64,000 nucleotides of DNA, taken from NCBI RefSeq assembly GCF_029227915.1, contig NC_079888.1:9779001-9843000 (forward strand). Direction: 5' to 3'. This stretch comes from Hydractinia symbiolongicarpus (Eukaryota > Cnidaria > Hydrozoa > Anthoathecata > Hydractiniidae). Made by a program: the position numbers and the translations under genes. Shown piece by piece: positions 14,511 to 63,771 of this stretch. Each line of letters begins with the position of its first letter. Within the stretch, counting starts at the first letter, position 1. The notes under the pieces are model-generated. The model searched no databases. It worked only from the letters and a program-made list of their open reading frames with translations, and was not told the origin of the DNA.

Positions 14511-15369
14511 TAACAAGTGTTGTTGTTGGGACAGGAGTGGGGGTTGCAGCAGTTGCTGCTACCCCTCTTGTACTTGGAGCTGTTGGATTTACTGCAGGAG
14601 GTAAGACCAAGTTGATTTTACTTGCAAATGAAAGGGAAAATTTTTAATTCAAATTTTGTCGGGCTATTTTTTGAAACTGTTACAATGTCTCACCAGAAAA
14701 TGTTTCCGCAGTATTTCCTTACTTTTTTTTCTCCCAGTGTTACTCCAGACAATTTTTCTCACAGTGTCACCCCAAAACATATTTTTTTGAGCCTCACCAC
14801 ACATTTTTTTTTCTCAATGTCACCCTAAAAAATTGCTTCCTTAGTTTTACCCCTGAACTTTTTTCCTCAGTGTCAACCCAGATCATTTTTAGTTCTCACT
14901 GTCACCCAAAAACATATTAGTTTTCAATGTGACCGCCGAACAATTTTTTCTCAGTGTCACCCCAGATCATTTTTAGTTCTCAATGTCACCCCAGATCATT
15001 TTTAGTTCTCACTGTCACCCAAAAACATATTAGTTTTCAATGTCACCGCCGAACAATTTTTTCTCAGTGTCACGCCAGAAAATGTTTTCCTCAGTGTCAC
15101 CCAAAAACATTTTTCCTCAGTTTCGCCGAGAACATTTTTTCTCTGTGTTTACTATTTTTTCTTAACATAATTTAGGTGTAGCGGCGGGAAGTATTGCTGC
15201 AGCTGCACAGAGTACATTTTATGGAGCGGCGACCACCGGTGTATTTTCTGTCTTGCAAAGCGTTGCAGCTGCCGGTTTGGGAACAGTTGGTGCTGCTGCT
15301 GTAGGGACAACTGCAGGAGTCGGTGCAGCAGCGGCGTGTGATGCATGTACAAGTGAAGATAAAAAATAG
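14511..15369 (+). CDS. ISG12/IFI6-like small hydrophobic protein (two exons visible)
   Basis: Exon 14511-14600 (acceptor TTTAG, donor GTAAGA) and exon 15176-15369 (acceptor TTTAG, stop TAG at 15367-15369) are joined in phase. The product is Gly/Ala-rich: VVGTGVGVAAVAATPLV, LGAVGFTAGG, then VAAGSIAAAAQSTFYGAA, VFSVLQSVAAAGLGTVG and a short tail with CDACTSEDKK. This is the IFI6/IFI27 (ISG12) family pattern: hydrophobic GxxAAG repeats, about 100 residues, mitochondrial or ER membrane proteins linked to innate immunity and apoptosis in vertebrates. The start exon is not certain. A 16-nt candidate, ATG at 13847 to donor GTAAGT at 13863, has the right phase but is speculative. The intron (14601-15175) is filled by a minisatellite. 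No lesion is seen in the two exons. Confidence 0.72.
14690..15150. repeat. minisatellite in intron of the ISG12-like gene
   Basis: Units of roughly 29-38 bp built on TTTTCTCAGTGTCACCCC-AGAACAT recur about 12-14 times with substitutions. There is a higher-order duplication of about 113 bp: the stretch from 14880 (GATCATTTTTAGTTCTCACT) recurs from about 14993. It fills most of the intron. Confidence 0.75.
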
Positions 15370-24734: not shown

Positions 24735-27275
24735 ATGAAGGGAGTTTTCTTGACCTTCATCGTTGGCGTGTTAATTTGTATAACTACAGCAGAAAATATA
24801 CCAAGGTATTTCTCGCTCAACCAATTTTATCCAACAAAAGGTGAGAGAGATCCAAGACTAAGCGAGACGAAATCCAGTGGTGCTATTCGTGATGTTATCA
24901 AACGTAACTCGCCAAGGTTTCGAAAAGTTTTAGTTCGAAACGCGAATCAAGAAATAGTTTTTCATAACGAAGATGCACGTTTGATGACGTCACGAGCGAA
25001 AAGCAAGTTAGATATTTTGGCGAGTTTGACTCGATCTCGATGGAACATGAACATACGGGTATTAAAAGCTTGGACAGATGATGTCAGTGCAGATTTGCTC
25101 TCATTGCATTATGAAGGTAAGAATTGAACTTTTGTTATCAATTTTGAGACTTCTCTACGATTTTGAGACTTCTCTTGCACAAATTGTATTAATTTAAAAC
25201 CTGGTAACGTTCATCTTAAAATTATTTTTGCCATAAAATTTACAAGCGACAGGCACTAAAACTTTATACTTCCAAAGTTTTTTGCATTGTAGACAAAACG
25301 GAGCAATTTTTAAGAAACAGAAATATAGAAATTTCAACATTAAGCCGCAGTCAAAATCATGTGTTGCTTATAAAACAGCGTGTACATGAAGTTAATGACA
25401 AAATATTCTTATTTTCACACACTTTTAATGAGAGAAGTTTAAGTTGAGTCATATTCTTAGTAAATGTCCGCCTCAAAAATCCTACCGCAGGCTTGTTGTT
25501 TGCAATCTCTCAGCACATCGCTTTAACTATCGCTACATCAAGCACAACTTATTTCATAATTTTAGCCAAGGCTTCCATGCACCAGTTAGAAACACATTAC
25601 TTAAGCAAAAATATGGACAAACATTGGCGCGACAGCTCTTGTTTAAAATGACGCAATCTTTTATATACTGTCGCTGTCACTTCATGTAAACATAACGTTG
25701 GCGTGAATTTTTTTTTCAAGACTGTATCATCGGAATATTCACTTCTCACTTTTTGTCCAAAAACGGCAAGGATTTTATCGTTGGATGAACTGCTGCAGGG
25801 TTAGGGAAAATTTTTATCAAGGAATTTTCGACTTAACCATGTCGTACAAAAATTTATCACTTTTACACGAGAAAGAGGTCTTGAGCTATAGCTGTTTTTA
25901 AAATCCCTATTGTTTGTCCTTTTCTTTTGTTTCCTTTTTTTCCATTTTTTTATTTACTCAGTTCAGTCTGCTTATTGTAGCTTACAACGTTTCTTATTAA
26001 ACAAAATAGTGTATTGAAGTTATGTCATCCTTGACTTAAACTCTCCAAGCAACATTTTAAAGAGTAGAGAGAAAGCTCTAAAAATAGGACCGGGCATCGC
26101 GCCATGGACAGCCGTGTCTCAAAGCTAAACAGAAGCCTTGAAAGGAGACTAATTTAAAAACAAATTTATGGTCGCGACACAAAACAGACAGTATATATAA
26201 AATATATAAAACACAAATTATACTAACTTATACTAATTATACAAACTATAAACATGTGTTGGAAGGCTTTCAAAAAAAAAAAAAAAAGAACAAAAAAAAA
26301 CAATCACATGATTACAATTGTTTAAAAACATTCTAGTTGACTAACAAGCTAAAAATTTAAAACTGACGTCAGCAAAATATGAACAAAACATTTTTTTTAT
26401 ATTGTGACTAAGAAAACAATAGTTTTTGTTCTTAGGACCGTTAGTCACAGTTTTCTTATCTTTTTATAATGTGCGATTAGTAATTTGGAAATAAAAACAA
26501 CATCTATTTTAACTTCAAGTTTATGAATTCAACCTCGCTTCCAGGACTTATACCGTTTCATTAAAACGGCTGGAACAGATAATCCAACCTCATCCCTAGT
26601 CACTAGTATTTTTTTTTATTAGCACAAATCCTTTTCGTCCCAATATAAAACGCGTAACAAGTCCTGGGAACGAGCTTGCAGACATTTAAGATACAACATT
26701 TGTCGTGTAATTAATTTTATTTACCATTAAGTGAAGACGTGAAACTTTTAAAAGATATTTTCAATCTAAATTTTCTAAATAAGTAAGCCCTCTGACACAG
26801 TTACTTTGAGTCCGTATTATTTTAGTCATAAAAGATGATATGTTTACTAGCCAGAAGCTAACCGTCGACGTTTCCCTGGGTTTGTGACCAAATATCAAAG
26901 CCGCAAGCGCTTACCTGAGCGTTGTACAACTGAACTTTTTATGCAAACTGTAATGAAATGATAAAAAATCGCATTTAATAAGAACTTCCTCTTTTTGCCT
27001 CTGTTCGCACAGATAATAATTGTCAACAAAGATGGCAGCGTGTAATATACATGTTTAGCAAGTGCGTTTTTCGTGTTGCAAAATATGATGATTTCCAAGA
27101 TGATGCAAATTTAAATGTCCACCTCTTTATTCATTAGGTCGAGCCATCATAGTTCGGACAAATGACAACAACAATGGAAGAATCAGTGATTTAGCTAAGT
27201 TAGCTTTAGAGGCTGGATTTGATTGGGTTCACTATAAAGACAGAGATTATATCCACATCAGTGTAATTCCTGACG
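24735..27275 (+). other. Hedgling exons 1-2: signal peptide and Hedge domain
   Basis: Residues 1-19 (MKGVFLTFIVGVLICITTA) are a typical signal peptide. The domain follows hedgehog N-terminal landmarks: NSPRFRKVLVRNANQEIVF, then DARLMTSRAKSKLDIL, then SLHYEG at the end of exon 1. RAIIVRTNDNN and LALEAGFDWVHYKDRDYIHI follow in exon 2. The intron splits the Gly codon of HYEG. By my alignment with hedgehog, the zinc-ligand His of LHYEG and the second His (YIHIS) are kept. The zinc-ligand Asp after RA is Ile, the nearby Glu is Lys, and the calcium-site Glu/Asp cluster is partly lost. There is no N-terminal Cys for palmitoylation and no Hog domain, so this is not a secreted morphogen precursor. Confidence 0.9.
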
Positions 27276-30200
27276 GTAGGTTGTTTTACATTTTATTTGT
27301 TTGTTTATTTAAAAATTACATAGGGTAGTTTTGTCCATAAGTACAATTTTAAAAAGGAAAGCTGTAAAGCTCTGTTGCTGATTGTATACCATGAGGCATC
27401 TTCCAAAGAACTGTCTTTTTTAAGGATACCTTGGAGGAATGCTCCCAGGAATATATATAGAATATGTTTGTAGCTAGTTTAGCTATATATGTGTGAAAAC
27501 TATAATGTACCATTGACAGAAAGCAAACATTATATATACTTATTGGTCGAGAATGATAAAAATTATTTTCTTTTAGTATGTCAAACAAAATTGGATCTTG
27601 CCATTGTTGTTGATACTTCAGGAAGTGTTGGTATACACAATTTCAATAAAATCAAATTATTTCTCAACAAACTCATTGATTTCTTTAACATTGGTATTGA
27701 TGAAACACACATTGCTCTCATCTCGTACTCTTACAGTGTATGTTTTTTTCTTAATCCTGCGCATTTATTATTTAGAATATATATATTTAACAACTAGTTA
27801 GTTATACTAAAATAAGTAATAATAATTATTAGATGATAAACGACTTCTGGTTTCCTTTTTTCTAGGTCAAAGTAGAATTTCCCTTAAATCGATACTACAA
27901 TAAATGGGATCTAAAGCAAGCGATCAATCGAATGTGGTACCAAGGTGCCAACACAGCCACTGGTAATGCTCTCATTGCACTGAAACAGCAAACATTTACT
28001 CTGCAAAATGGAATGAGAGATGATAAAAGTATTCCAAAGGTGGGAAAATATTTTGTTAAAATTTTTTAAGCAAGACAAGGGTCGATGTTCGTGATTAATG
28101 ACTTCAATCTTTGAAGTATTTAAAGTTTTAAGTTCTCTTAATAGGCTAAACAGCATTTTTATCTGCTATTGTTGCAATCGTCATTTTCATTCATGTTACA
28201 TTTTGCAATGGTAATATAAAGAAAAGTGGTTTTTTAATTCAGATCGGTATTCTTATGACTGATGGATATTCAAATGGAGGAATGAGTGTAGCTCAGGCTG
28301 CTAGACAAGTGAAAGCTGCAGGAATAAACATGTTTGTTGTTGGTATTACAAACAAGTACGTAAGCACCGTGTGTATCATATATTAAGTAGCTCTAAGTCC
28401 CATGGAAAGATCAATTGTGCAAACGGACTATAATTAGGTAGACGAAGAATCGAAGATATCAGCAATGGTCCATTCATATACATTTTTGTAGGAAAAATTG
28501 TTAAGCGTTGCGGAGCTCAGCATACTGATCAAATAATGCATATAATTGTGTCTGTGCTTTCGATAAGTGGTTGTTAGGGCAATGTTAGAAAATTTTGCAG
28601 ACCATTTTGTCTTTCACAAAAAGGCAACTTAACAGGAAAGACAGAATCAGAAGTAAAAATTTGATTTATTTTGTAGTCCAAGACGATCGGAAATCAATGC
28701 TATTGCTAGTCCACCAATCGATGAGCATTATATTGCAATTGCAAGGTTTACAGATTTGTCAAGCTTTGTTGATCAAATAAGTACTGTTTCATGTGATGGT
28801 AAGTGAAACAAGTAAAGAAAAAAGCCTGTTTTTTTGCAATTTTTAATTTGTCCCTCATTCATACTGAATATACATATTTTTCTCAAATTGAAAAGGAAAA
28901 GGAACTGGCTATTTACCTTCTGAATTTCTTATGTCAGCATGTTGTTATTTTCATATTAAGAGGGAGCGCAAATCTCACAATGTGAAAATGCTGATACTGA
29001 TGTTGATGGAGGTTCATTTAAATACTTCCGCGTTCAAGTCAAAAGTAGCGTTACAATCGAAGTGCAGGATAAACAAGGTAAGTAGCAACATAATGGATCT
29101 TGACTTTTGTTCTCGATGGGATGCATCTGCAACTTGTAATGAACAGACACAGTTTTGAATAAAATGTTAGACACTTTTTTATTTAAATTTTAGGACAGAG
29201 CTTTCTGTATGTATCGTTTAAATTGAAGAATCCTGGTCCTCTGTCACAGGGAGATATTATGAAAAATGAGAATCCATTATCACCGCGAACAATCCCAATA
29301 AATATTCCATCAGGAAGTTCAAAGGTTTGTTATGGTTTGAGAACAAACTTTTGAAGTGCGGTATGCGTGTGCTTAGTAAGAAAGTAAGATTAGAAGTTAC
29401 ATGCCCTGTAGCTTTCAAAGTGCCACAAAGTTCTTTTTAAATAAATTTCGTATTCAAAAACATTTTTTTAGCTTTAGATAATTATTACAGAGTGTAGTCT
29501 ATTTTTCATTTGTTTTCAGATCGTTTACATTGCTGTGCAGGGACAAAAGGAACATAATCAGTTCTCCCTTAGTATTTGGGATTCATTATTCCCTAATCCG
29601 ACCATCACTAAAACTGTTGACGAGAATCAAGTTTCCGGTGTGACTGTTGCACGAGTCCAAACAAAAATTTCGCCAAATATGTAAGCAATTTTTTTTATGT
29701 TATTACGTATAACTTTGTATTTTCGTCAAATCATTTATTAGTTAAACATTACTCACTGTAATGTTTCGAATGGTTTACCTTTGTTATAATATTTAATAGG
29801 TTCAAGTATTCCATCAAAGATGGAAATATTAATAACCATTTCCAAATCGATTCAAACTCTGGCGTTGTCAAAACAAAAGTGTCACTAGATCGAGAAAAAA
29901 TCTCCAAATATCAACTTAGCATTATTGCACAGGATGAGAATGAGAAATGTCACAAAGGATTAATGGTGCTTATCGTATACGTAGAAGATAAAGATGATAA
30001 TAAACCAAAATTTGAAAAAAGCCTCTACACAGCAAGTGTTTGGGAGGATGTACCACAGAACCAGTATGTAGTGAAGGTATGTTTTGTGTAGCAACATATA
30101 GCAAATAAAAATCTTCCAAAATTAGGAAATTGTGCAATCGAAGACGGCTGAAAAAGCTGCTTCTTAGCAAATGGTTTCTGATTGTTTTTAAGCAGCAATG

Positions 30201-33200
30201 TTGTTTACCTTAAGGACAAATCCACTTTGTTTCAACAGGTTCAAGCTACAGACCAGGATGTTGGCAGTAATGCAAAGTTAACTTATGAAATTTATGAGCC
30301 TGCAGGTGACAAGAATGTTTTCCAAATTGACCCCGATACCGGTGTTGTACGAACCAGAGCTACTTTAGATTATGAAACAAAAACAAGCTATGAGTTGAAG
30401 CTGCGTGTGAGCGATGGTGGGAATACAAAAGACTACGGCTATGCAACCCTTAAAATTCAAGTACAGGACGTAAATGAACCACCATATTTTACGCAACCGT
30501 CTTGTATATTAAGTCAGAATTGTTTGTTCACCATCAAAGAGAATAAACCAGCTAAATCAAATGTTGGTCAAGTGATCCAAGCAAATGATCCGGACACTAG
30601 AGCAAACTGTAGATTAGAGTATCATATAGTTTCCTTGGATAACAAGTACTTCACCATTGACAAAACAACCGGCGTAATAACCACGAAAGAGGAACTTGAC
30701 AGAGAAACGAAAGAAACGTACTCGTTAGACGTGAGAGTTTCAGATTGTGGAACACCAAGGCTGTCTGCACAAAAAACAGTCATCGTGAAAGCATTAGATG
30801 AGAATGATAATCATCCTGTCTTTCCTTACCCTTCTTACACACAACGTGTCCCAGAAGATAAACTGGTAAATAGTCGCATTATCAAACTTACCGCGACAGG
30901 TCAGTATAATACACTTCATAGAATTGTTTGCATTATATCAAAAGCGCTGAATTACAAATATAACGGTTTTATATATTTTTGTTGGGCCTGAAATTCATGT
31001 GCAATGTTTTCACATTTAGATTTGGACGCGGGTGCAAGCGCTAGAATAACATACAGCATAACAAAAACTGATGCTACAAATGTGTTTACTATTAATCCAT
31101 CGACTGGTGAGATCGTTCTAAAAAGGCAATTAGATAGAGAAACAAAAGCAAAAATAACGCTTGAAGTGACAGCCACCGATGGTGGATCACCTCTAAAAAG
31201 CACTCCAATAAGTGTTGTCATAATTGTCACTGATGTTAATGACAATAGGCCTGCATTTAGTGGACCAACAGATCAACAGGTTAAAGAAAACGTTGGCAAA
31301 GGAACTCATGTTTTTGCAGTCACAGCTACAGATGCTGATGAGGGTAATTTTGTTTTGTCTAGTTCCTTGTTGATGTAGACAGTTGTTCCATATTTTCCAT
31401 ATATTTAAAAAAAACACAACTCACATTTGAATTTTAAATAATACAGAATAACAATACAAAATTTGCTTGCTTTTTGAACATTAGTATTTTATGTAAATTA
31501 AAGTTTAAAACAAACTTCATTGATAATTTAATGCACACTAAAGAAACCAGTGGGTTATACCTAAAGCACTTTAATAATGCTGGCTGCAACCAAACACTTT
31601 CTTATAATCATCAACATGCCTTAAGTATCAGTTAAAGTACTCCAGAAAATATTTTAAAGGATGATTGTGTTTGAAAATGGTAAAAGATGTTAAAAATTCC
31701 TTGTCTAATAATAATTTTTTTCTGTTAGATTTGTTTAGTTCAACTTAAAAATTAATTTCTAAAATTTTGCCAATGAAGGTGGTTAAGCATTCTTGAAGTA
31801 CATATAAGATATTATTTTATTCTTTGCTGTGCAGGTTTAAACAAGAAAATAAGATTCTCGATTGTCAGTGGCAATAACGGAGGCGTGTTCAAAATTTTTG
31901 ATTCTGGTCAAGTTGAAACATCTGGTCAACCTGATCGTGAGAAACAAGAATATTATACTTTAAAGATTAGAGCAAGAGATTTCGGTTCACCTTCTCTGTA
32001 CTCAGACCGAGATTATCGTGTGCAGATCTTAGATGAAAATGATAATACACCAGTGTTTTCAAGAACAAGATACATTAAAACGGTCAAAGAAAATGCGCCA
32101 CAAAATTCAGATGTTATCCAGGTTATTTTTTATCATGTTCTTTTTTAAATATCGTTTTAAAGGAATTTTTTTAGAAAGGAACTTTAAGTCTAGCTTAAAA
32201 TATTTGCTTTCTCCTGAGACTTTCACATCTTATCATAGGTTAGAGCAGATGATGCTGACATAGGAACTAATGCAGAAATTATCTTCTCTGTTGACTCGGG
32301 AAATGACGGTAACAAATTTAGCATCGATGCTTCGAATGGCTTGATAAAGTTGGTTGGAAAGTTAGAGTACGGTACAAAGAATGTTTACCGACTGCGTATC
32401 AAAGCTACTGATAAAGGCACTCCAAGAACACTGACCGGAACTTCGATTGTTGATATCACTGTTCAAGGTATTTGAATTCTTTACTGTCCATTTTTCTTGC
32501 ACAAGAGGTTTTCTAGTTGAAGTTGGGATTTTCAATTATGTGGTTTTTAGAGCAAAGCCTCTCTTTATTTTTCATAAGACAAGGTTATCCAACCAGACTG
32601 CGAAAATCACTCTTGTGGCTTTATGTGTTTCGTATATTGTCAGGAGTATTGTTTTTTGAGCTACAAGTTAAAGGGAATTGGGAATCTCTTGGGATCATGG
32701 AAATTTACAAAACTAGACCTTACCATATGATTCATTTCTTTAGATACGAACGACTTCAAACCTGTATTTTCTAAAAACCAATACACCAAACAAATTGACG
32801 AAAACATCAAAATTAACACACCAATTTTAAAAGTGTCGGCGATAGATCAGGACAGTGGTACTAGTGGACAAATTATTTATACCATAACACGACAAGAAAA
32901 CGATAACGCGTTTTATATCGATTCAAACACAGGTACTTTTAATTTCCTACTTCCTATTTTTGTTCACATAAAAAACTTCATGTTACATGTTAGACCCATG
33001 TATTTCAGGTCAGATCTTCAATAGAGGAAACATCGACTACGAAACGCGACAAAGCTACCTTTTGACTGTTACTGCAATCGATAAAGGAGTTCCAGCGAAA
33101 TTTTCCACAGCAACTGTGAATATTCAAGTAAATGATCTTAATGACAACACTCCTGTCATGGCAAATGTGGAGAAATCCATCTTGGAAGATAAATCTGTAA

Positions 33201-36200
33201 ACTTTGTAGTACATCAGCTTGTTGCTACTGACAAAGATAGTGGCGACAACAAAGTTATTGAATACACCCTTATCACTACTGGTGTTCCATTTGCTGTCTC
33301 TAAAGATGGTAGACTCATTGTGTCAGGTGCACTTGATCGTGAGACGCAAAGTGCCTATACCCTTAACGTGCGAGCACAAGATAAAGGCGTACCATCAAGG
33401 TCGTCTACCGCAACTGTAGTTATTCGCCTCGATGACATTAATGATAACACACCAGTGTTCGGTAAAAACAGCTTCGATTGTTCAGTTTTTGAAAACGCGC
33501 CAATTAATACTCACGTATGTTACGTGAAAGCCACAGATCAAGATATCGGTACAAACGCGCAAATCAAATATAGTTCCAGTGATGATTCCCTCTTTAAGAT
33601 TAACGTGGTAGGTATCACCATTCTCAGTATGGCAATTCCCTGAAGATTAACCGTCGAAAAGAAAATCGACTTTGCTTCTTCGTATGTTCATTTATCCACT
33701 TTGTTATTATAGAATACTGGGGAAGTAACAACGGCAAAAATTTATGATCGTGAAGTTGATAGTGTGAAATCTATACGAATAAAAGCACAAGATCAGGGAC
33801 GGTATCCAAAGGCATTAGGTAAAGAAAACTTTTTCAATCAATCAACCATTATTTTAATTTTATATATATAACTTATATATATATATAAACTTTATAATAT
33901 ATATATACATGCATATATATACATACGTATATATACATACATATATATACATATACACAAGACTGGCGTAAGCCGGATTGTGTCAACTCGTGCCGGAGCA
34001 AAACGGCGTTCGTTGTTTAGATCCGACAAAAAGTCGAACTTATATTATATATATTTTAGATGCATCGGTGGGCTTAAATGTTACTATCAAAGATGAGAAT
34101 GACAATACACCTGAGTTTGGTAAACAAAAATACACATTCAATATCAAAGAAAACGAAAACGACGGAACCGACGTCGGAGATGTTGGCGCTACCGACAGAG
34201 ACACCCGCAGCAATGCTGATATTGACTATACGATTACCAGTGGTCATATATTTGGTGGAGTGGCAAGGTTTGTGTTGGCATGATTTTGCTCGATTGTTTG
34301 TTAATTATTCTACTCGATTGGAAGAGTATTTATTTTTGCGAAGGTTAATCAAAACGCTTAGCTTCTACATTGCTCTGCATCTGCTGTTTGTGTATACATA
34401 TATCACCTTCTACTAGGTTCTCGATCGTGAAGACCAGTAATAACAAAGCCATATTGAAAGCTAAAAAACTGGACCGAGAAACTCGATCATCTTACAGTTT
34501 AACGATTCGGGCTAATGATCGAGGCACGCCATCATTGTCAGCAACTGTGGTTGCCACAGTTGACGTTAATGATTTGAACGACAACAAACCGATCTTCACT
34601 GAGAATGTTTACACTAGCAAAATAAAAGAAAGTGTAGGCGTTGGCACATACGTGTTGAAGGTAAACTAGTTGAATTTAAGACAAGCATGAATAATTTTTA
34701 TCTGCGAAGTAGCCATTTTAAATACCATTCCATCACACTGTGGTTAAATGCAGGTGCATTCATGAAACTTAGCGTACATGCGAGCTACACACTTTCTAAG
34801 ATGCGACTTATAAATTTACGTTTATTTTTTCTCGCCCACCAAAAATGTAAAGTACTAAATTTACTTAATGGTCAAGTTAATACGAAATATTTCAATTTCA
34901 CAACTTACCTTATCAATTGGTGCATTTGTTACAATTCGGAATTGGTCTCTTTCTGTTGTTGTTTTGTGGTCTCTGTCGTTTTTATTCATTAACGTGTGAT
35001 AAGAACTTGTCCTTGAATTTTTGCAAACAGTTACATATTTTGTGTCATCATAGAAATGCACCTAGGTGGATTCAGAATGTGATCAACATGTTTTCTCATT
35101 TAGGTTTCAGCTTCAGACCGTGATGCAGGTAGTAATGCCGAAATAGCTTACAAATTCATTAGCGGTACCAATCAAGATTATTTTTCACTGGACGTGAATA
35201 GTGGTGTATTAACAACAGCTAAGAAGTTGGATTACGAAACCATTCAAGCGTACTCTTTCACTGTGACAGCAGAAGATAAAGGTAGTCCGAAGAATACCGA
35301 CACTGCACAAGTTAGTCTTTTTGTCAACGTCAGCAATTTTAATCATGGATAACTTGAGACTGCAGTGACTTAAACTTCAATAACTACTTTCGCTCATTAT
35401 TTTAGAATATTTCCTGCGGAGGAGGGAGATAGTTCGTTATATTCCATGTGAAATTTTCACCAATGTTTTTCGAAATGCCAAAAAAATCCACTCTATTAAA
35501 TTAAAGCTCAGAAAATATTCTTGACTTTTTCTTTGATAAATTTTAACTTCAGGTTAAAATCGAGATTCTGAATGTCGATGACAACGCACCAAAGTTCGAA
35601 AATATAAGTCAAGTTGAGTTACCGGAAGATATAGGCGTCGGTCAACCGGTGGTTCAGTTTAAGGCCACAGACAAGGACGGGTCCACTTTGACGTTTAGCA
35701 TTATTGGAGGAAACACCGAAAATAAATTTATAGTGGACAGAAATACAGGTATACCTGCTTGCATATATGTATTTAACAGAACGTAACGCTAACAAATGCG
35801 ATATATTAAAATAGATTGTGATTTGACAAGCTAGCATGAGTTTGTCCAAACAACAGCTGAAAATTTTTTCTCTACACTTTAAAAAAGGCATTAGTGAGAT
35901 TTAGTATAAATGCTACCTTGGCTGATACTACCAATAGTTAATGGGCTGGTAGTACCTGAAATATTTTATACGTCACTCTTCTGTTCTTTCTTTTGTCTGC
36001 ATCTGTTGCTTTAAGTGTGTCAAAATAAGTTTTAATACAATTCTGGGAAACAATAAAGTGGACGAAAATTTGACTTTTTTAATAATGTGCGATTACTTGG
36101 AGTACGGTCAGTCATCAGAAAAATGTTGACACAAATTAATTGAACTAGAACCCTAAGTTATGTTTTACTTTTAAGTAAAAAACGGAACAAAATGTTACAT

Positions 36201-39200
36201 TGACTTCTAAAATCTGATTGGCTGCTTAAATATGCAAACAAAAGATAACCCAACGCATTAAGGGCTACTACTCCCTATCCTGTATTTTTATTTCAACAGG
36301 TTTAATGAGCGTTAATCAACCGCTTGATCGTGAAACTACCGACATTTATAACGTCACCGTTCAAACGTCAGACGGCAGCAAAACGGCGCTGGCGCATTTA
36401 CCAATTAAAGTATTAGATGTTAATGACAATCAACCAATTTTTTCGAGCACATCTTATAGTGGATCTATTGATGAAGATGCTTCTTCTGGAACATTTGTTT
36501 TTGCTGCTAATAAAGGTAAACTGTCTGGTTAATAAAGACAAAACCGTCATCGAATTTTCTACCACTTTCAATGTTATGTGTTTGAATAATATTTATAATA
36601 ATCCTGTTTTTTTTTCTAGCCATTCTTAGTGTTCACGCAACTGACAGAGATCTGGGCACCAACGCAGAGATCGTTTATTCAATCGTTTCTGGTGGCAAAG
36701 ATGACTTTAGTATTGCCGGATCGACAGGTGAGACTATATGTCGTGGCCATGCGTATATTAAAGCCAACCCAACTTTCGTTTAATATGAACTCCTGTTACA
36801 GTTTGTTCGGCTAATAAGTGTGCTGTCTCGCTAAGGTACCCTTCTTATTTCTAGGTGAAATCAGAGCAAAAGGTAGCTTAGATAGAGAGGAACAGGCTGA
36901 ATACAACTTGAAAGTTATGGCTGCTGACAAAGGCTCTCCTACGCTAAGCTCAGTTGTCATGGTGAACGTGAAAATCAACGATCTTAATGACAATTCTCCA
37001 CAGTTTGAAAAATCAGCTTATTCAATCTCTATCGCAGAGAATACTGGTGTGTCTGCCCGACTTCTTGCTGTTAAAGCAACAGATGAAGACGAAGGAGAGA
37101 ACGGAAGAGTGACGTATAAAATAGTTTCAGGTTCTACCAGCGATTTTAGAATTAATGATACAACAGGAGAAGTGTTTACCAAAATAAACTTGGACCGGGA
37201 AACAAAAGGTAGCCATCAAATCACAATTAAAGCTACTGACCATGGCGTGAAACCACTGAGTAATTCAGTTGTCATGACAATTACAGTAACTGATATGAAT
37301 GATAACAATCCGATTATAACATTTCCAACCAAACTTGCTGCTGTCAACGAAAGTTCACCAGAGCTGTACAAGGTTGGAACTATCCAAGCCACAGACAGAG
37401 ATATTGGTGTAAACCGTCAACTCGTGTACGGCATTCAAGACGAAGCCAATCTTTTTGGTATCAATCCTAACAGCGGTGAAGTCTACTTGACAGGTATGCT
37501 CGACCGCGAGAACAAACCCAGACATCTGGTGACAGTGACTGTCCATGATAAAGGCGTACCACAGCTTGACGCTACAAAGAGTTACAATGTGATCGTACTG
37601 GATGCTAACGATAATAAGCCTGATTTTATATCGGCCAAATACGCAGGTAATAATCCTATATGCTTTGTAGCTGAAGCTACTTTATTGTCTAACTGATTTT
37701 TATGCTTTGTATTTTTATTTTTGAAGGATCTGTGGAGGAGAACAAAGCTGGACGCAACAAGTTGTTCACCGTAAAAGCTGATGATAAGGATATTGGTGAA
37801 AATGCCATCGTGTCCTACTCCATTGTAGATGATCAGCAAGGCTTATTTGAGATTGACCAATCAGGTCAAGTTTTTGTTGTCAAGGAAACTGATTTCGAGA
37901 AAAAATTCTCGTATTCGTTAACAATCAAGGCTTCTGATTGGAAGTTTAATACCACGGTTGATGCTGAAATCACCATTATCGATGTGAATGACAACAATCC
38001 TATTTTCGTACAATCAACATACACAAAAGTGATCGCTGAAAACAGTAATCTTGGCGCGTCAGTGTTGACAGTAGCAGCAACAGATGTTGATCCTTTTGGT
38101 GATTTAATTTACTATTTTGACAAAACTGCAGAAACTCTCCCTTTTGATATAGACAGTAGAACAGGCGTGATAACGGTAGCCGGTTTATTAGACTACGAAG
38201 TCCAAAAAAAGTATACTTTCAAAGTTATGGCAAACGACAGCGGTACGCCACAGTTGACGGGTAACTGTACCGTCGCGATCTCTATCAGCGACGTCAATGA
38301 CAACCAACCAGAATTCTCGAATTACACAAAGACGGTTGCTGTGAAAGAAAATCAAAAAGCCGGTATATTTGTTGCAACTTTGACGGCAACTGATAAAGAT
38401 AGCGGCTTGAACGGTGTCGTGAAGTACTACGAATCCACAATAGGTGGACAGAAAAGCAAAGATTTTGAAATCTTACCTGACACCGGCGAAGTAAAGACTA
38501 TTCGATCTTTCGATCGCGAGGTGGAAGCTACGTTACAATTCGTAGTATATGCGATAGATCAAGGAAAAGACAGGCAGCTAAAGTCCAAGGAGTTCTTTCT
38601 TACAGTGAACATACTAGATGAAAACGATAACTCGCCGATATGGAAAGAGCAAAACTACAAAGTGGACATTTTAGAATCAGCTGCTGTTGGAGAGCAGGTC
38701 ATCAGCGTGAAAGCTACAGACTTAGATCAAGCGCAGAACGGTCGAGTATCTTACGAAATTGTCGATACTAGTGGACAATTTGGCATTGAAGCTGATTCAG
38801 GTAAGACACTTCGCTTCGTTAAGTTGTCAAACAGTGGTTAAACTCAAGGGTAATAAATCCAACCTTGAAAAGATGTTAGAGTTTACCTCGAAAATCTAGA
38901 TAGAATGTTATGTCTTTTGCACGTAAAAATATTCATCATCCATAAGTAAATAAATAAATAATTCGCATTTCTCTTAGGTGTTGTTCACGTTAAAACCGGT
39001 TTGGATCGAGAAACACGTGACTCGTATACTTTAAAACTGATCGCTAGAGATAACGGTACCACTTCTCGCAGCGCGGAGAACACATTGAATATCACCATTT
39101 TAGACGTCAACGATAATTCTCCTCTGGTTGATCCTACCACCCTAACCGGACACGTATTCGAAAATAAACCCGGACAAACTACTATAGTTAGGGTGAAAGC

Positions 39201-42200
39201 AACAGATCGTGATATCGGCAAGAATGCGCAAATTGAGTATTCGATGTCAAACAATGACTTGTTCTCAATTGATGCAGTATCTGGACGTGTACAAACATTG
39301 AGACCTTTGGATCGAGAGGAAAAAGATAAATATAACTTGGAAATTACAGTTTACGACAAAGGTGTACCGCGGCGTCAAACCAACGCTATTCTTAACATCA
39401 CAGTACTTGATGTCGACGATAACTGTCCGATATTTGCAGCTAACGTTTATAACGCTAACGTTGAAGAGAATGCAGACTTTGGCACATTTGTATTGCAAGT
39501 GTCGGCGACAGATGCGGATATTGGTACTAATGCTATATTAAATTATGGAGTTTTTGAAACCAACGGTCCGTTCACGATTAATCAAGATAGTGGCAATATT
39601 ACGGTAGCCGGAGACGTAGATTTGGAATACACACAAACGTATTATATGAAAATTAGGGCTGGCTCATTGACGTGTGGAATAAAAGTTAACGGAACTAACG
39701 TCGGAGAAGGTGGAAAAACTGACAACCAAAACTACACTTTGACCTATGTTTACGTCACCGTTATTGACAAGAATGATAATAGCCCGGTTTTCCGAAACGG
39801 GAAGGAAAAAATCCACTTTAATCGGATTGACATGATTCACTTAATCACGCTTAATGCTACTGATGATGATTCAGGTCCTGGTGGAGAGGTAGGGAAAAAT
39901 CTTGCACTGATTTATATTAACTGTTTATTCACTTCTTTTAATTTTGTAATGTATTGTGCATCTTCTCACGTAGGTTGCATATCGCCTTGCAGAAACAAAG
40001 CAACAAAATGTGAACGGAACAATCGAAAACTATGTGGTTGTGGAGGCTTACGATCACGCTCCTACTCCTCTTGTCTCAAACCAGACTTTAGTTGTGGTGA
40101 ATGACATACGCTGTGATCGAATGCTGTTCGAAGTTTCGCAAAATGGTAGCGTGACTGTGAAAGCATTGTGTTCACTAACGAACACGAAAACATCTATCAA
40201 TTTGCTGGTAGGCGAAACTTTAGATTTGGAATGTAAAACTACCGGCAACGTCAACGACGTGAAATACAGATGGGTAAAAGACGGCAACGTTGTGTCGACA
40301 TGGAGTAAAAGTGGAAAACTTCAGATAGAAGATGTCCAGCAGAATCAAGAAGGTGTCTATGCCTGCGTGGCCTCCAGTGTTGCGGGCGTTATCCAATCCA
40401 CAGCCACGGAAGTTGTTGTACAAGGTAAAGCTACTTTTACCTATAGAGTCTTTACCGCACTTGGTCTTGTGTCGTTTGTTTACATTTGCTTCTCGACTAT
40501 ATTAGTTTGGCCTGGATCTGTTCCGTTTTTTGTGTGTGTATACTTGCCTATCGAGTATTTGCTTCTCTCAGCCTCTTTGGTATTTACGGTACTTTCCGTT
40601 TTGATTTACGTAAGGGAGAAAATGTAATGGGGCGGCTTCAACTTTAATGATCTAGCTTACGTGTGAATACATTTTTATAATTTAGAAAAACCAGTCATTG
40701 TCAAACAACCAATTTCACAAACAGTCGGCATCGACGGTACAGTTATTCTGAAAATCGCTGCTTCAGGTGATCCAATTCCCACATACCAGTGGTACAGAGA
40801 CGGTAGTAAGTACAAGGGGTATACATCCAGTAACCTTACATTGAGAGACACCATTCAAGCTGATTCGGGAAAATACTACTGCATCGTCGAGAATTCAGTT
40901 GGCTCCGTGAAGTCGGATGAAGTAAAGCTTCGCGTTGTTGACCATTCAACCGTGGTGGTAATGAAGGTTGCTATTGACAAACCAGATTTAAAGCAAAATT
41001 GTCAAAATTTCATCATAGAAGATTTTGAGAAAAGTTTAACGGGTGTCATAACAAACAAACTGGTGGTTACAGAACATCCGAAACTCGATCCGAAATTCTG
41101 TAAAATTACGGCCTGCAGTAGGAATCCTTGTTCAAACGGTGGTACTTGCTCTGTAACAGAGACTGGATTTATGTGTGTTTGCCCAACGTCTTGGACTGGT
41201 GATAATTGCGAAAGGGATTTAAATGAGTGCAACCAAGGCTCCTCAATATGTTATGGTAATAGCACCTGTGCTAATTTGGAAGGATCATACTCATGCAAGT
41301 GTCCAAGCCATTTAACTGGTCGAAATTGCGAATACTCCACAGATGCCTGTAAAGCAAATCTATGCGATAAATCCAGTGACTTGTGTGTGGCGTCACAGAA
41401 CAGAAACCGTTCGTGCGTTAAGAAATCCACCGAGGTCACACTCAACATTAACTCGAAATCATTCACGCCATGGAACGATCAAAATCGATTTGTTTTGGAA
41501 GAAATGCTCAACCAGATCATAAAGACAAGAAAGGCTCAGCGCACGACGAGTCGCCGTAAACGTAGAAATACAGGTAACTCGGTAGATTTTGGTGTGTGCA
41601 CGATCCATATCACCAACCACGAAGTCGTTAGTGCAACCGAAAGCAAGATCAAACTGGCTTTAGACTGTTATGGGTCAAATGATACAGTATTAATCACGTT
41701 AACACCAAAGCTTCTCGTTGATTTGTGCGGTCAGTTACTTGGAGCAGGTAACACCCTCCTCCAGTGTGGTCAGCCAGGCTCAATGACCAAAAAAGAAGTG
41801 AAAAAAACTGACCCAGCGACTGTAGATATTCACGTTGTGATTGAGGACAAAAAGACAGGCAAGGCTCTTCCCGCAGAAGAAGCCATCGATTTGTTGGAAA
41901 AGAAGAAGGACCAATTTCCTTCTAGTTATAACATGTTAAGCGCAAATGGTAGAGGTAAAAGAACACAGGAGGAGAAAAAAAAGAACACGGTTGTTATTGC
42001 TGTTGTTGTTTGCTTATGTCTAGCACTAGTAGCTGCGGTTGCCATTTTTCTTTTCGTCAGACATAAAAATCAAAGTCGAGGTAAAGGGACTGACGTCATG
42101 CATCAACGTTCAGTTATGTTGCGTAGTGATCCGACGAGTTCTTCACAGCTTGTGCCTCGAGGAAGTGTAGATGACGGCATACCGAACGAAAATTTGGCCT

Positions 42201-42631
42201 ACAACGACGACGATGAAGAAATAAATAACGGCACGTTTATGTTCGAAATGCCGGCAAATTTGAAAGCGTCAAACAAAAAAACAGAGGACATTGAGAAAGT
42301 TGGATGGTATCATGGCGAGGTTAGCGAAACAAGCGTTGAAAAACTTTTATCCCAATGTAATGAAGCAGGCACCTATTTGCTTTACAAAAACGCATCGAAA
42401 GAGTACGTTCTTGGCGTAAAAGCGTCGCCTGGAGGACCCTCAGTGCACCACTTCTCAATCAATATTCCTAGCGAAGGAAGGTTCAACGTCCAGTTTGGTT
42501 CAATGGACCCTATGACATTTAATAGCGTTTCTCGTCTTATCGAATATTACAGTGTTCATACAATATCCTTTGACGACGACATGATACCCGATGTCGTTCT
42601 TACGTCGCCATTGCTTAAGTCAGCGCTGTAA
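24735..42631 (+). CDS. Hedgling: Hedge-VWA-cadherin-Ig-EGF-TM-SH2 receptor-like protein
   Basis: 28 exons join in phase: 24735-25116, 27138-27275, 27577-27737, 27866-28039, 28243-28355, 28677-28798, 28961-29077, 29194-29324, 29520-29680, 29800-30076, 30239-30899, 31020-31343, 31835-32121, 32239-32467, 32744-32932, 33009-33607, 33713-33818, 34060-34267, 34417-34660, 35104-35310, 35553-35748, 36300-36515, 36620-36727, 36855-37646, 37727-38800, 38978-39888, 39974-40424, 40686-42631. The total is 10524 nt, 3507 residues plus stop, with GT-AG at every junction. Order: signal peptide (1-19), Hedge (about 30-173), VWA (about 180-360), cadherin repeats (about 465-2710), two Ig, two EGF, juxtamembrane segment, membrane span (about 3293-3317), SH2 (about 3400-3488). 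This is the Hedgling plan: a hedgehog N-terminal domain on a giant cadherin, with no Hog autoprocessing domain. It should act at the cell surface. Exon edges are my own splice calls. No lesion is seen. Ligand and partners are unknown. Confidence 0.93.
27577..28798 (+). other. Hedgling exons 3-6: von Willebrand A domain
   Basis: The VWA/integrin-I fold has a full MIDAS metal site: DLAIVVDTSGSVG (DxSxS) in exon 3, a Thr in the loop GANTATGNALI in exon 4, and the Asp in IGILMTDGYSNGG in exon 5. The C-terminal strand and helix end at FTDLSSFVDQISTVSC in exon 6. The intact MIDAS predicts divalent-cation-dependent ligand binding. Exons 7-9 (28961-29680) then encode a beta-rich segment of unknown fold (VKSSVTIEVQDK, FLYVSFKLKNPGPL) before the first cadherin repeat. 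Confidence 0.9.
29575..39888 (+). other. Hedgling exons 9-26: 21 cadherin repeats
   Basis: I count 21 extracellular cadherin repeats by their LDRE (or LDYE/FDRE) and DxNDNxPxF calcium motifs. Good examples are ELDRETKETYSL with DENDNHPVF (repeat 3), ALDRETQSAYTL with DINDNTPVF (8), NLDRETKGSHQI with DMNDNNP (14) and PLDREEKDKYNL with DVDDNCPIF (20). Repeat 6 has lost the motif (KLEYGTKN, DTNDFKPVF) and repeat 16 is short (DFEKKFSY). Repeat 21 carries an insertion of about 20 residues with a Cys. A decayed 22nd repeat spans the exon 26/27 boundary (NYVVVEAYDHAPTPL). Calcium-rigidified repeats make long adhesive rods. Confidence 0.9.
33855..33960. repeat. (TA)/(CATATA) microsatellite in Hedgling intron 17
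   Basis: Runs of TATATA and ATACATAC fill about 100 bp of the intron between exons 17 and 18. The adjacent 33961-34040 is of ordinary composition. Confidence 0.7.
39974..41985 (+). other. Hedgling exons 27-28: two Ig, two EGF, juxtamembrane segment
   Basis: Ig1 (40190-40424) has both Cys and the core Trp (LDLECKTTG, YRWVKDG, VYACVAS). Ig2 (40690-40935) keeps YQWYRDG and KYYCIVEN but has Ile where the first Cys should be (VILKIAASG). EGF1 (about 41109-41213) reads CSRNPCSNGGTC ... GDNCE. EGF2 (41214-41338) starts DLNEC, a calcium-binding EGF signature. Then come RRKRR (41552-41566), a 130-residue region with four Cys, and RGKR (41951-41962) just before the membrane span. Both basic stretches fit the furin pattern. 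Confidence 0.85.
41984..42631 (+). other. Hedgling membrane span, cytoplasmic tail and atypical SH2
   Basis: The span is TVVIAVVVCLCLALVAAVAI followed by FLFV, then RHK as the stop-transfer. The tail (about 190 residues) includes an acidic stretch with a tyrosine (ENLAYNDDDEE). It ends in an SH2 domain: GWYHGEVSETSVEKLL, GTYLLYKNASKEYVLGV, VHHFSINI, SRLIEYYSVHTI. The domain has the alpha-A, beta-B, beta-D and alpha-B landmarks of SH2. The invariant phosphotyrosine-binding Arg of FLVRES is a Tyr here (codon 42383-42385, about residue 3426), while the beta-D His is kept. Confidence 0.85.
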
Positions 42632-43790: not shown

Positions 43791-44509
43791 CTACAAAAAC
43801 AATTTTTATTAAATCTTTACGCAACAAGATGAATTTGATTCCAGCAACGTCATTGTTAACTTCGTTAAGAAAAACACTATAATAAGAGACACGAATGATA
43901 ATTAGTCAATCTTATTAAGTAAAGAAGCTGGATATATCAAATATTTGGAAACCTTCTCAAGATTGGCCTTAAAGTCTCAAGAAAACATTAATTATTTTAC
44001 ATTTATTTTTTTAATTGCTTACGATGACTTTTTAAACAATTCCAATTACTTTTATGTTTTTAATTATAAAATTTCTTCTTACACATTTTATTTCCGAATA
44101 ATCTATTAGCTGCTTCCTCCAAGGTTAGTTTAAACACGACGTGGAGATTTCATTATTTTAATTTTTCTATCCTAGCAAAATGGCTACCTTATTCGATTTA
44201 TCCTTTTTATATCATGTTATGTTTGTTTCTACTCCCTCTCCCTTTTTTTTGGAATCCCGAGAGTAATTTATATCTTTTTCAGAATAATTATCTATTTAGC
44301 ATTTTAAATAAAAAAATCCCAAAAGACGTAAAATAAAAGCGTTTTTTTATTAATTAACAAAGAAATAATTAAGATTTATTCAAGCTCGTAGTTGTAAAAA
44401 GTTTCATATGTGAAGCGCAGTAATCTTATGATTTGAAAATTTCAGCTGGCAGAATTTATTAATGCAGGCAAGTTGTTTAATTGTTTGAGAATATCAACCT
44501 GTACAAAAA

Positions 44510-45583
44510 ATGGTTTTAACTTGTACACAAGAAATTATTATGTACACTAACGATACAATATTCTTACGAAATTTATCAGACAGACAATTTTTTCCAGAAA
44601 CTGTTCAAGTGGTTCTTGTAATATGTTATGTTTCTCTGTATACAGTCAATTTAATTGGTAATACTTCGATATGGATAGCTATTATTTCTCAAAAGACACT
44701 TCACACACCAATGAACTATTTTCTGTTGAACTTATCACTTGCACATATTGTTTCGGGTAGTAATGCTGTCTTCTTTGCTTTTGTAACAGACACAGGCTCA
44801 GTTGTGAATTCTCAAACTAGCCTGGACGCTTTGTGCGCTTGCAGCGAAGGATTATGTGTATACTTTACTGGTGTTGGTACATATCTTTTCACCTTATGTG
44901 GCATCAGTCTAAACAGATATATAGTTATTAAATATCCCACGAGGAGAAACCTTCTCATGAAAGGCAAAGGAGTTCTTTTATATAGTGTTTTCGTCTGGTT
45001 ATTATGCAGTGGCATTACACTACCTTCTTTTGTTTCATTTCAATACAACAAAAATATTCGTTTATGCTTACGAAGCTGGCAACATTTTGAGCATCCTTTT
45101 ATTTACCGAGCTGTCATGTTCACGATTTCGTTTTTTGTCCCGATCACTTGTCTTATGATCACTTTGTGTACAATCATTTGGAAACGTTGGAGCATCAACG
45201 AAGGCTTGGGCAGGTATGCCACAAATATCATTACACTGAACCTGCAAAAAGCAGAAAGACAAATAGGCACCTCTTTTCTAGTATTTTTTATCACCTGGCT
45301 GCCCTTTTCAATCTATTGGTGCTTGTGGACGGGAGGATATTTCAAAGGGTGTGATGGGAGCATCAACGCCATGAAATGGATCAGATTAACAGTTTTATTT
45401 TCAACACTAAATGGCAGCATTGATCCTTTTATTTATACTTTTGGTAGCACTAACTTGCGAGTAGCCGTGGTTTCATCTTTTAGAACAATCTTTCCACAAG
45501 CAAAGAACGGCCGTCTACCACAAAAAGAAAAAATGGACAGAATTAGAATGATGTCTGTAGCAACAATCTCGTCGCAAGTGTAA
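44510..45583 (+). CDS. class A (rhodopsin-like) GPCR, intronless
   Basis: 357 residues with seven hydrophobic helices and two N-glycosylation sites before TM1 (NDT, NLS). Landmarks: TM1 NLIGNTSIW (Asn1.50), TM2 LNLSLAHIVSG, extracellular Cys before TM3, TM3 end SLNRYIVIKYP, TM4 Trp (FVWLLCSG), TM5 Pro (FFVPITCL), TM6 FITWLPFSIYW, TM7 NGSIDPFIYTFG, then a short tail. Three switch positions deviate from consensus: His instead of Asp2.50, Asn instead of Asp in DRY, Asp instead of Asn in NPxxY. The family is probably peptide-receptor-like; the ligand is unknown. Single-exon receptors of this sort are common in cnidarians. The start at 44510 is chosen as the longest frame; ATG at 44540 is an alternative. 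Confidence 0.85.
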   Translation: MVLTCTQEIIMYTNDTIFLRNLSDRQFFPETVQVVLVICYVSLYTVNLIGNTSIWIAIISQKTLHTPMNYFLLNLSLAHIVSGSNAVFFAFVTDTGSVVNSQTSLDALCACSEGLCVYFTGVGTYLFTLCGISLNRYIVIKYPTRRNLLMKGKGVLLYSVFVWLLCSGITLPSFVSFQYNKNIRLCLRSWQHFEHPFIYRAVMFTISFFVPITCLMITLCTIIWKRWSINEGLGRYATNIITLNLQKAERQIGTSFLVFFITWLPFSIYWCLWTGGYFKGCDGSINAMKWIRLTVLFSTLNGSIDPFIYTFGSTNLRVAVVSSFRTIFPQAKNGRLPQKEKMDRIRMMSVATISSQV

Positions 45584-50852: not shown

Positions 50853-51351
<499 letters not shown>

Positions 51352-54817: not shown

Positions 54818-57160
54818 ATGCCTGGAGATAATTGTTCACTATATGGCTGTACAGTATCACGAAGAGCTAAGTACAAGGGAATAGCTATTTTTAAAGTTCC
54901 AACTAGTGAAAATACGTTCGATTCACAGTGGAGGAAAAAATTGATAGCTATTGTCACCAAACATCGTGTGGTTGATAAAGTAATTCGTGACAGAATAACA
55001 AATAAAAGAATCTTCATTTGTCAACGGCACTTTATTGAAAATCAATATTATCGTCATGAGAGCAGAGTTACATTGAATCCTGGTGAATTGCCTTGCCTCA
55101 ATTTACCCATCAAAAGCATTCCTTCTTCTTCAACCATAACAAAACCAAGGGAATCATCACAGTCAACGTTATTAAAGAGAGCTTAACATCAACCTCCAGA
55201 AATTAAAACACCTGAATATTTTGAATGTTATCAATCATTTTCTGAATTTTCTTCCCGTATTCAAAATCTCAGACATGCCGAGTGGCAACATAATTATTCA
55301 GAGAACAGTGTTCAATTTTACTGCAATGATGATATTCATATGGTACCAAAATATGAGATTTATGTTGATACAAGTCTTCAGTTTAATGTCCGATTGCTAC
55401 TATGGAGTCTTCCTAAACAACATCAAATTTATAATATCTATGACCACTCAGTTAAAAATATCACGATTTCTAATTTGATTAGATACATTTCGGGTTTCTT
55501 TGTTTGTCCTGGTTTGCCAAGATCATTTTCTGGTAGTTGCATTGAACATACTGCACCTAAAAAACTTAACCAAACAATAGACATATTACCAAATCCTCTT
55601 TCTCAAACGAAATGGCATCGACCACCTTCCTGCCAATTATTAATTAACACTGAAGACAAATGTGAACTGTGTTTGAAAGCTGATTCTAGGGAAAAACTTA
55701 GTCTTCAAAGAAAACAAGAGAATTTATCCACACCGGCTCATGATAAAGCTCCTGTTTCCTTAACATTTCCTCATCATATAAAATTGAAACTTTAAAGTTA
55801 TACAATTGAGAACAAACAGTTAAAAGCTGACAAATTTAAGATGAAGATAAAAGGCAGTACCTGTTGATGATAGTTTGAGCAAATATATGATGAATATCAT
55901 GTCAAATGCAGATTACGAAAAGATGCCTGAATTTATGCAATTCTTTTGGAGTGAACAACAAAAATATCTTTCTTCATCAAAGACAGCTGTTAGATATCAT
56001 CCTATGATTATCCGGTATTGTTTGGGTTTAGCCGCAAAATCGCCTTCGTTTTATGATGAAATTCGTTATGACGAGAAAACAAAAGCTGGTTTCGTTATTT
56101 TGCCCAGTCGTCGCCGATTAAGGGACTATAAAAACTTACGAAAAGATGCCTGAATTTATGCAATTCTTTTGGAGTGAACAACAAAAATATCTTTCTTCAT
56201 CAAAGACAGCTGTTAGATATCATCATATGATTATCCGGTATTGTTTGGGTGTAGCCGCAAAATTGCCTTCGTTTTATGATGAAATTCGTTATGACGAGAA
56301 AACAAAAGCTGGTTTCGTTATTTTGCCCAGTCGTCGCCGATTAAGGGACTATAAAAACTTACGAAAAGATGCCTGAATTTATGCAATTCTTTTGGAGTGA
56401 ACAACAAAAATATCTTTCTTCATCAAAGACAGCTGTTAGATATCATCCTATGATTATCCGGTATTGTTTGGGTTTAGCCGCAAAATTGTCTTCGTTTTAT
56501 GATGAAATTCGTTATGACGAGAAAACAAAAGCTGGTTTCGTTATTTTGCCCAGTCGTCGCCGATTAAGGGACTATAAAAACTATATACGACCACAGTAAG
56601 GAGTTAATGAAGATGTCATCTTAGAATTAAAACAAATAGTGGAGAATTTTTCAGACATAGAACGATATGGTATTGTGTTAATGGATGAAATAAAAATACA
56701 AGAGAAATTAGTTTGGGATAAGCACACCGGTAACTTAATTGGATATGTGGACTTAGGTGATATGGAACTTAATTTGGCATCCCTTCAAAAATCTGATGAC
56801 ATTGCATCACACATGCTGGTCTTCTTAATTCGAAGTATTGTTAACCACTTAAAATTCTCCCTTGCCAACTTTGCAACCACAAATGCTACGTCTGTTCAGT
56901 TATTTACATTATTTTGGAAAGCTGTTGGCATATTGGAGGACAATTGTGGAATTAAAGTGGTCGGTGTTACAAGTGATGGCGCTTCTCCAAACCGCAGTAT
57001 GTATCGGATGCATTTTAATATGACAAGAGTGGAAGATGTTAATGGAGACGTTGATGTAACCTATCGTACACTTAATGTGATGGCAACTGAAAAGAGATAT
57101 ATTTACTTCATATCCGACCCACCACATCTGATTAAAACTGCCAGAAATATATTGAAATGT
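54818..57160 (+). pseudogene. P-element/THAP9-like transposase, broken, with internal triplication
   Basis: The N-terminus (54818-55186) is a THAP zinc finger: MPGDNCSLYGC, a core Trp (SQWRKK), CQRHF and a closing ELPCLNLP. The same frame continues past a TAA (55184) with the variable linker (WHRPPSCQ, CELCLKAD, TPAHDKAPVS), a TAA near 55793 and a frameshift before 55875. The P-element transposase core follows: RRRLRDYKNYIRPQ, a TAA at 56597, then YGIVLMDEIKIQEKLVWDKH (first catalytic Asp), GVTSDGASPNRSM (second Asp) and YFISDPPHLIKTARN. The homology ends near 57150, so the C-terminal part with the last catalytic residue is absent. In between, a 223-bp block is present three times. P-type transposases cut and paste DNA using GTP; this copy cannot make protein. 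Confidence 0.85.
55914..56582 (+). repeat. 223-bp tandem triplication inside the P-like transposase
   Basis: Three head-to-tail copies start with TACGAAAAGATGCCTGAATT at 55914, 56137 and 56360. They differ at only a handful of bases (for example AAATCGCC, AAATTGCC, AAATTGTC). The third ends where ACTATATACG replaces ACTTACG. Since 223 is not a multiple of three, each copy opens in its own frame and stops just inside the next. Confidence 0.95.
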
Positions 57161-57194
57161 ATTGATTTAAGTATCGTGTTCCTGGTCAGTTGAT

Positions 57195-63395: not shown

Positions 63396-63771
63396 TAAGA
63401 CGATTTTAGAATAACAAACACTGTCTAAGCTAAGTTAAAGTTCATAACATAAATCCACCAATTCGAGCAAATAATATCCACACAACATCACAAGTCCACC
63501 AATTCAAGTAAATATCCAAAAATAATATCAAAAGTCCATCAATCGAGCGCCATTTAAAGAATTCATAAAATATCAAAATCAAGTACCTCGTGTACTCTAC
63601 TCGTTATCTTTCTCAACTATACTCTCTAGAAAAATTGTACAACAAAAAAAAGAATGCGGGGAAACCCCGAAAAAATAATAATGGCGTCATTATTTACAAA
63701 TCCAATTACCTTCTTTTTAGTTTTTTCATTTACCTTCTTACAGTAGTTATATACAGTACATTTGTTTTTGC

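Follow-up and report, generated by a model that had tools for sequence, protein, structure and literature searches.

An intact Hedgling gene of Hydractinia symbiolongicarpus, with a putative pseudo-SH2 domain and a possibly cleaved SEA-like juxtamembrane domain

A gene that joins a hedgehog-type N-terminal domain to a long cadherin arm and an intracellular SH2 domain raises the question of what its product might bind outside the cell and how it might signal inside. We addressed this question for the Hedgling gene in a 64,000-nucleotide stretch of the genome of the hydrozoan Hydractinia symbiolongicarpus (contig NC_079888.1; the whole stretch is called the window here). It is near certain that this gene is an intact Hedgling. 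We postulate, with a probability of roughly one half, that it encodes a giant single-pass adhesion receptor with a SEA-like domain cut by a convertase, a tail that signals through short motifs, and a pseudo-SH2 domain. More tentatively, the protein would be a convertase-processed SEA mechanoreceptor whose SH2 domain turned into a pseudo-SH2 a single time, on the stem of the hydrozoans (or medusozoans), before it was deleted in Hydra and perhaps in other lineages. The architecture is already known, both as a family and in its domain order, and the window gene is a further member. The points added here are the putative pseudo-SH2 domain on the hydrozoan side, for which the sequence evidence is direct, and a conserved, possibly cleaved SEA-like juxtamembrane domain, suggested by its predicted fold.

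The gene, rebuilt from the sequence, spans 17,897 bp. As a preliminary description of this DNA had proposed, its 28 exons are splice-consistent and their lengths sum to a multiple of three: 27/27 introns begin with GT and end with AG, and the 10,524 nt of coding sequence form one frame with a single, terminal stop. The domain set given in that description (Hedge, VWA, 21 cadherins, two Ig, two EGF, membrane span and SH2) was recovered by Pfam on the spliced product and by hydropathy. The hedgehog N-domain claimed for exons 1-2 is there (HH_signal, 4.9e-36, residues 37-169) and matches hedgehogs of solved structure in the PDB (Drosophila Hh, 2.5e-27; Shh, 7.2e-26). VWA follows directly (7.5e-43, residues 180-356). 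Beyond it lie 21 Cadherin stretches, two Ig_3 stretches (2.3e-22), EGF (1.4e-8) and EGF_CA (6.6e-6), one membrane span at a hydropathy peak near residues 3293-3319, and SH2 (1.2e-7, residues 3400-3481, 32.1 bits against a cut-off of 21); a second hydropathy peak marks the N-terminus, consistent with a signal peptide. The 20 Pfam families listed at E <= 0.001 include no TNFR or furin-type repeats, as had also been observed, and no Hog/Hint autoprocessing domain.

We compared the protein with 12 homologues, to which it is 37-96% identical along the chain over aligned residues. These come from 17 matches, of which P0001, P0005, P0012, P0014 and P0017, VWA- or collagen-type by name and domains, were set aside. 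A wider search, in which 7985 candidates were scored and the best 120 of 190 matches were listed, added only P0019; judged by the names and domains given for them, the other new matches listed were Fat-type cadherins, bacterial proteins and various others. In the full-length tree the window protein groups with Hydra homologues at 100/99, and the Hydra side separates from the anthozoan side at 87/90 (100/100 in the tree of the C-terminal half). P0006 is long-branched in both trees, and P0007, which is cut at its C-terminus, falls on the anthozoan side of the full-length tree. Cadherins number 21 in P0002 and P0010, 22 in P0003 and 13 in P0006. The domain set had been thought possibly lineage-specific, and it is not: HH_signal, VWA, cadherin, Ig and SH2 are in the Pfam lists of the Actinia, Acropora and Actinostola homologues, and Nematostella Nv200640 has the same order in the passages of PMC2362128 that describe it. 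The attribution of Hedgling to a sponge and a sea anemone was incomplete: passages of PMC4054682 report the family from choanoflagellates too.

The SH2 fold is predicted to be intact. The structure model has a mean predicted local distance difference test (pLDDT) score of 79.3, and the Foldseek matches listed for it are SH2 domains or SH2 proteins (Grb2 SH2, 8.6e-7). Aligned with ABL1 and GRB2, the domain retains the betaD4 His, and has Tyr3426 in place of the betaB5 Arg, Glu at alphaA2 and Ser at betaD6. We take these positions to have their usual roles in SH2 domains, the betaB5 Arg normally gripping the phosphotyrosine; this Arg of the FLVR motif, the mark of a phosphotyrosine-binding SH2, is absent from the window protein. 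Tyr stands at betaB5 in 5/5 Hydra-side rows that have an SH2 (window, P0002, P0003, P0123 and P0006) and Arg in 5/5 anthozoan-side rows (P0008, P0009, P0010, P0011 and P0013), counts that include the near-identical pairs window/P0002 and P0010/P0011, the latter assigned to its side by the tree only. The counts for SH2, loop and tail do not include P0007 and P0019, whose C-termini are missing. None of the three Hydra records (P0004, P0015 and P0016) has an SH2, and their chains end just past the FMxE motif of the tail. P0124 and P0125 end there too, apparently without SH2, but both are open reading frame calls in which a missing SH2 could reflect an intron or a contig end. The most parsimonious history would have the Arg lost once and the SH2 domain itself lost later, in Hydra. 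The betaB5 change is unreported in the passages of the Hedgling literature at hand, no search having been aimed at it. The preliminary description had seen in the SH2 domain a link from adhesion to cytoplasmic signalling; the domain is indeed present, but a plain link to tyrosine-kinase signalling is doubtful because the betaB5 Arg is Tyr.

The hydrozoan SH2 could instead be a decaying remnant, functionless and persisting by chance. We consider this rather unlikely, although the replaced Arg and the absent domains would fit it, as would the state of the domain in two relatives: in P0006 it is identical to that of the window protein at 26/101 positions, below the 38% of the chain overall, and is unlisted by Pfam even at E 10, and in P0003 it scores 19.9 bits, slightly short of the cut-off of 21. 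However, SH2 identity to the window protein is at the level of the whole chain in P0002 (110/113 against 96%) and in P0003 (53/111 against 49%), which tells somewhat against decay alone in the lineage of the window, and the C-terminal PLLKSAL is identical in the window protein, P0002, P0003 and P0123. The same conservation, the retained fold and the betaD4 His would also suit an SH2 that still reads phosphotyrosine by way of other residues, such that hydrozoan Hedgling links adhesion to tyrosine kinases, as that of anemones may. This is improbable in view of the Tyr, Glu and Ser at betaB5, alphaA2 and betaD6 and of the three Hydra records without SH2. We favor a pseudo-SH2 in hydrozoans, in which the standard phosphotyrosine pocket would be unusable and which would have been lost altogether in Hydra.

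With such a pseudo-SH2, the hydrozoan tail would rely for its signalling chiefly on short conserved motifs, NxxY/F and FMxE. Every one of the 15 tails examined carries the pattern FM-x-[EQD]-[MVI], including those of the three Hydra records. NxxY/F, which we take to be PTB-binding-like by resemblance only, is found in 13/15 tails and also in 13-53% of shuffled ones. Our best guess is that the essential cytoplasmic output is what Hydra keeps without the SH2 domain.

The juxtamembrane domain has a predicted fold resembling SEA/MAD folds, and four Cys are invariant among the 10 sequences aligned. A basic cluster at the site of the RRKRR loop is conserved in 13/14 sequences, P0016 being excluded. 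A SEA-like domain with a conserved basic loop suggests a Notch-like cleaved adhesion receptor. We propose that a proprotein convertase cuts the RRKRR loop to leave two non-covalently held chains, and that, much as in Notch, a pull on the long arm could then uncover the membrane stub or set it free. Sequence profiles gave no significant match and do not confirm the SEA/MAD identity of the domain.

Partners on neighboring cells or in the matrix might be bound by the VWA metal site, whose motif is intact in all covering rows (11/11 and 13/13), together with the cadherin rod. In the Hedge head, the Shh zinc ligands H141 and H183 are retained as H125 and H167, the zinc ligand D148 is replaced by Ile132 and the catalytic E177 by Lys161; the full zinc triad and catalytic Glu of a hedgehog ligand (H141, D148, H183 and E177) are not all present. 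An Asp at the D148 position occurs in 0/11 rows spanning the site (window and 10 homologues); P0013, P0015 and P0016 cover the zinc region incompletely. Six hedgehog calcium ligands are named in PMC8052667, and of these E90 and D132 are kept and four changed in an alignment judged by eye. The incomplete zinc site, as read from the alignment, agrees with what passages of PMC6027127 and PMC8052667 state of other Hedglings, which are without a complete peptidase motif. If the head were a membrane-tethered hedgehog ligand for Patched on a neighboring cell, its significant match to structurally solved hedgehog N-domains would be expected, but we consider such a role improbable, as one zinc ligand, the catalytic Glu and four of six calcium ligands differ in the window protein and the D148-position Asp is in none of the rows. 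Without a full zinc site, the head may serve as a non-catalytic binding module.

Elsewhere in the genome, one contig (C12) carries four more HH_signal-like exons (L003, L004, L005 and L006; E 4.8e-6 to 9.4e-4). They retain LHYEGRALD, including the zinc Asp missing from Hedgling, and the L005 match has one stop; they may belong to true hedgehog or hedgehog-like genes, possibly a one-contig expansion. Within the Hedgling family, P0007 has about 22 extra residues at HYE/GR, the exon 1/2 junction of the window gene (25116/27138). The insert is likely a retained intron or an annotation slip, and it suggests an intron position shared with the window gene.

The preliminary description placed the Hedge/VWA exons and the SH2 exon in one gene, and single-contig messages of relatives bear this out. 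P0002, like the window protein, has 3507 amino acids, of which 3351 (96%) are identical in a gapless alignment. Its single 10,801-nt contig is shorter than the genomic span, so introns have been removed and the Hedge head and SH2 lie in one spliced message there, a message from a close relative and not from this individual. Hedge, VWA and SH2 likewise occur in a single chain in P0003 (10,872-nt contig), Actinia and Acropora; the Actinostola protein has VWA and SH2 in one chain, but its head is partial and begins within the Hedge domain. Gene models can fuse, and these transcripts come from relatives, but with both ends in one chain in P0002, P0003, Actinia and Acropora, a fusion of two neighbors, one with the Hedge/VWA exons and one with the SH2 exon, is extremely improbable.

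If our model is right, a giant adhesion receptor was uncoupled stepwise from tyrosine-kinase signalling while its short tail motifs stayed unchanged. From the betaB5 change one would expect phosphotyrosine reading to be gone from hydrozoan Hedgling, though possibly still present in its anthozoan counterpart; from the conserved basic loop, one would expect a receptor cleaved into two chains. With the gene complete and orthologues of it across cnidarians, there is a system in which such predictions can be tested. Positions of the gene, its parts and the neighboring features are collected in Table 1.

Table 1. Hedgling and other features of the window (positions count from the first letter of the window)
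Feature	Position	Strand	Basis
Hedgling gene, complete coding span; 28 exons, 3507 amino acids, single open frame	24735..42631	+	
Exon 1: hydrophobic N-terminus (signal-peptide-like) and most of Hedge domain	24735..25116	+	gene model, hydropathy, Pfam
Exon 2: remainder of Hedge domain, split at HYE/GR	27138..27275	+	gene model, Pfam
VWA domain, exons 3-6; metal-ion-dependent adhesion site (MIDAS) motif DTSGS ... T ... D intact	27594..28776	+	Pfam, motif check
Cadherin repeats, 21 Pfam stretches, about exons 9-26, limits approximate	29520..39888	+	gene model, Pfam
Ig domain 1, exon 27	40181..40420	+	Pfam, residues 2779-2858
Ig domain 2, start of exon 28	40688..40894	+	Pfam, residues 2861-2929
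EGF repeat 1	41114..41206	+	Pfam, residues 3003-3033
EGF repeat 2, calcium-binding type	41216..41314	+	Pfam, residues 3037-3069
SEA/MAD-like juxtamembrane domain (predicted)	41426..41791	+	fold prediction only
RRKRR, putative furin-type (proprotein convertase) site in disordered loop of SEA-like domain	41552..41566	+	sequence, predicted structure
Transmembrane helix	41984..42058	+	hydropathy, about residues 3293-3317
NLAY, NxxY/F tail motif	42191..42202	+	motif scan
FMFEM tail motif, in 15/15 tails	42236..42250	+	alignment, motif scan
SH2 domain, residues 3400-3481	42305..42550	+	Pfam, structure model, Foldseek
Tyr3426 codon at SH2 betaB5 Arg position, YLLY for FLVR	42383..42385	+	alignment
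364-residue open frame, 7tm_1 (rhodopsin-type receptor), E 8.6e-32, about 1.9 kb downstream of Hedgling	44489-45583	+	
Pao-type retroelement pieces: peptidase A17, reverse transcriptase, integrase, DUF1758/1759	58049-63434	-	
Three 223-bp tandem copies (98% matches), adjoining open frame matching TNP-like RNase H	55913-57193		
Perfect (GACA) repeat, about 125 copies; creates long spurious open frames in several frames	50853-51351		
Degenerate tandem array, 26-27-bp unit, partly also read as 113-bp unit, includes TCAGTGTCAC	14727-15148		
Open frame matching Ulp1-type (C48) peptidase, E 2.9e-7	2925-3392	+	

Several known systems share parts of this arrangement. Notch resembles the window protein in its cleavage loop by analogy only, and is not among the best 50 fold matches listed. 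The tip-link cadherins PCDH15 and CDH23 have a similar membrane-adjacent SEA-like arrangement by fold, but there is no significant sequence match between them and the window juxtamembrane domain. Hedgehog ligands (Shh and Drosophila Hh) share the N-terminal signalling domain by homology; in contrast to them, the window protein has no Hog/Hint listed, a predicted membrane span and an incomplete zinc and catalytic set.

Within the Hedgling family, the choanoflagellate and sponge proteins, compared by their description in passages of PMC4054682, also have an N-terminal Hh beside VWA, then cadherins and a transmembrane segment, whereas some Hedglings described there differ from the window protein in their TNFR, Furin and EGF modules. 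Hydra vulgaris Hedgling is recorded under other names (P0004 as cadherin-related tumor suppressor / Hedgehog protein, P0015 and P0016 as protocadherin Fat 4). It shares the aligned ectodomain, the basic loop site (P0004 and P0015) and the FMxE tail motif, but its tail stops just past that motif, with no SH2, and the P0015 and P0016 records are without the Hedge head. Nematostella Nv200640 (2008, Burglin), as given in the same passages of PMC2362128, has Hedge on two exons, VWA, 21 cadherins, two Ig, two EGF, a transmembrane segment and SH2. At 3592 amino acids it differs in length from the window protein, with 3507, but the two have the same domain order and 21 cadherins each.
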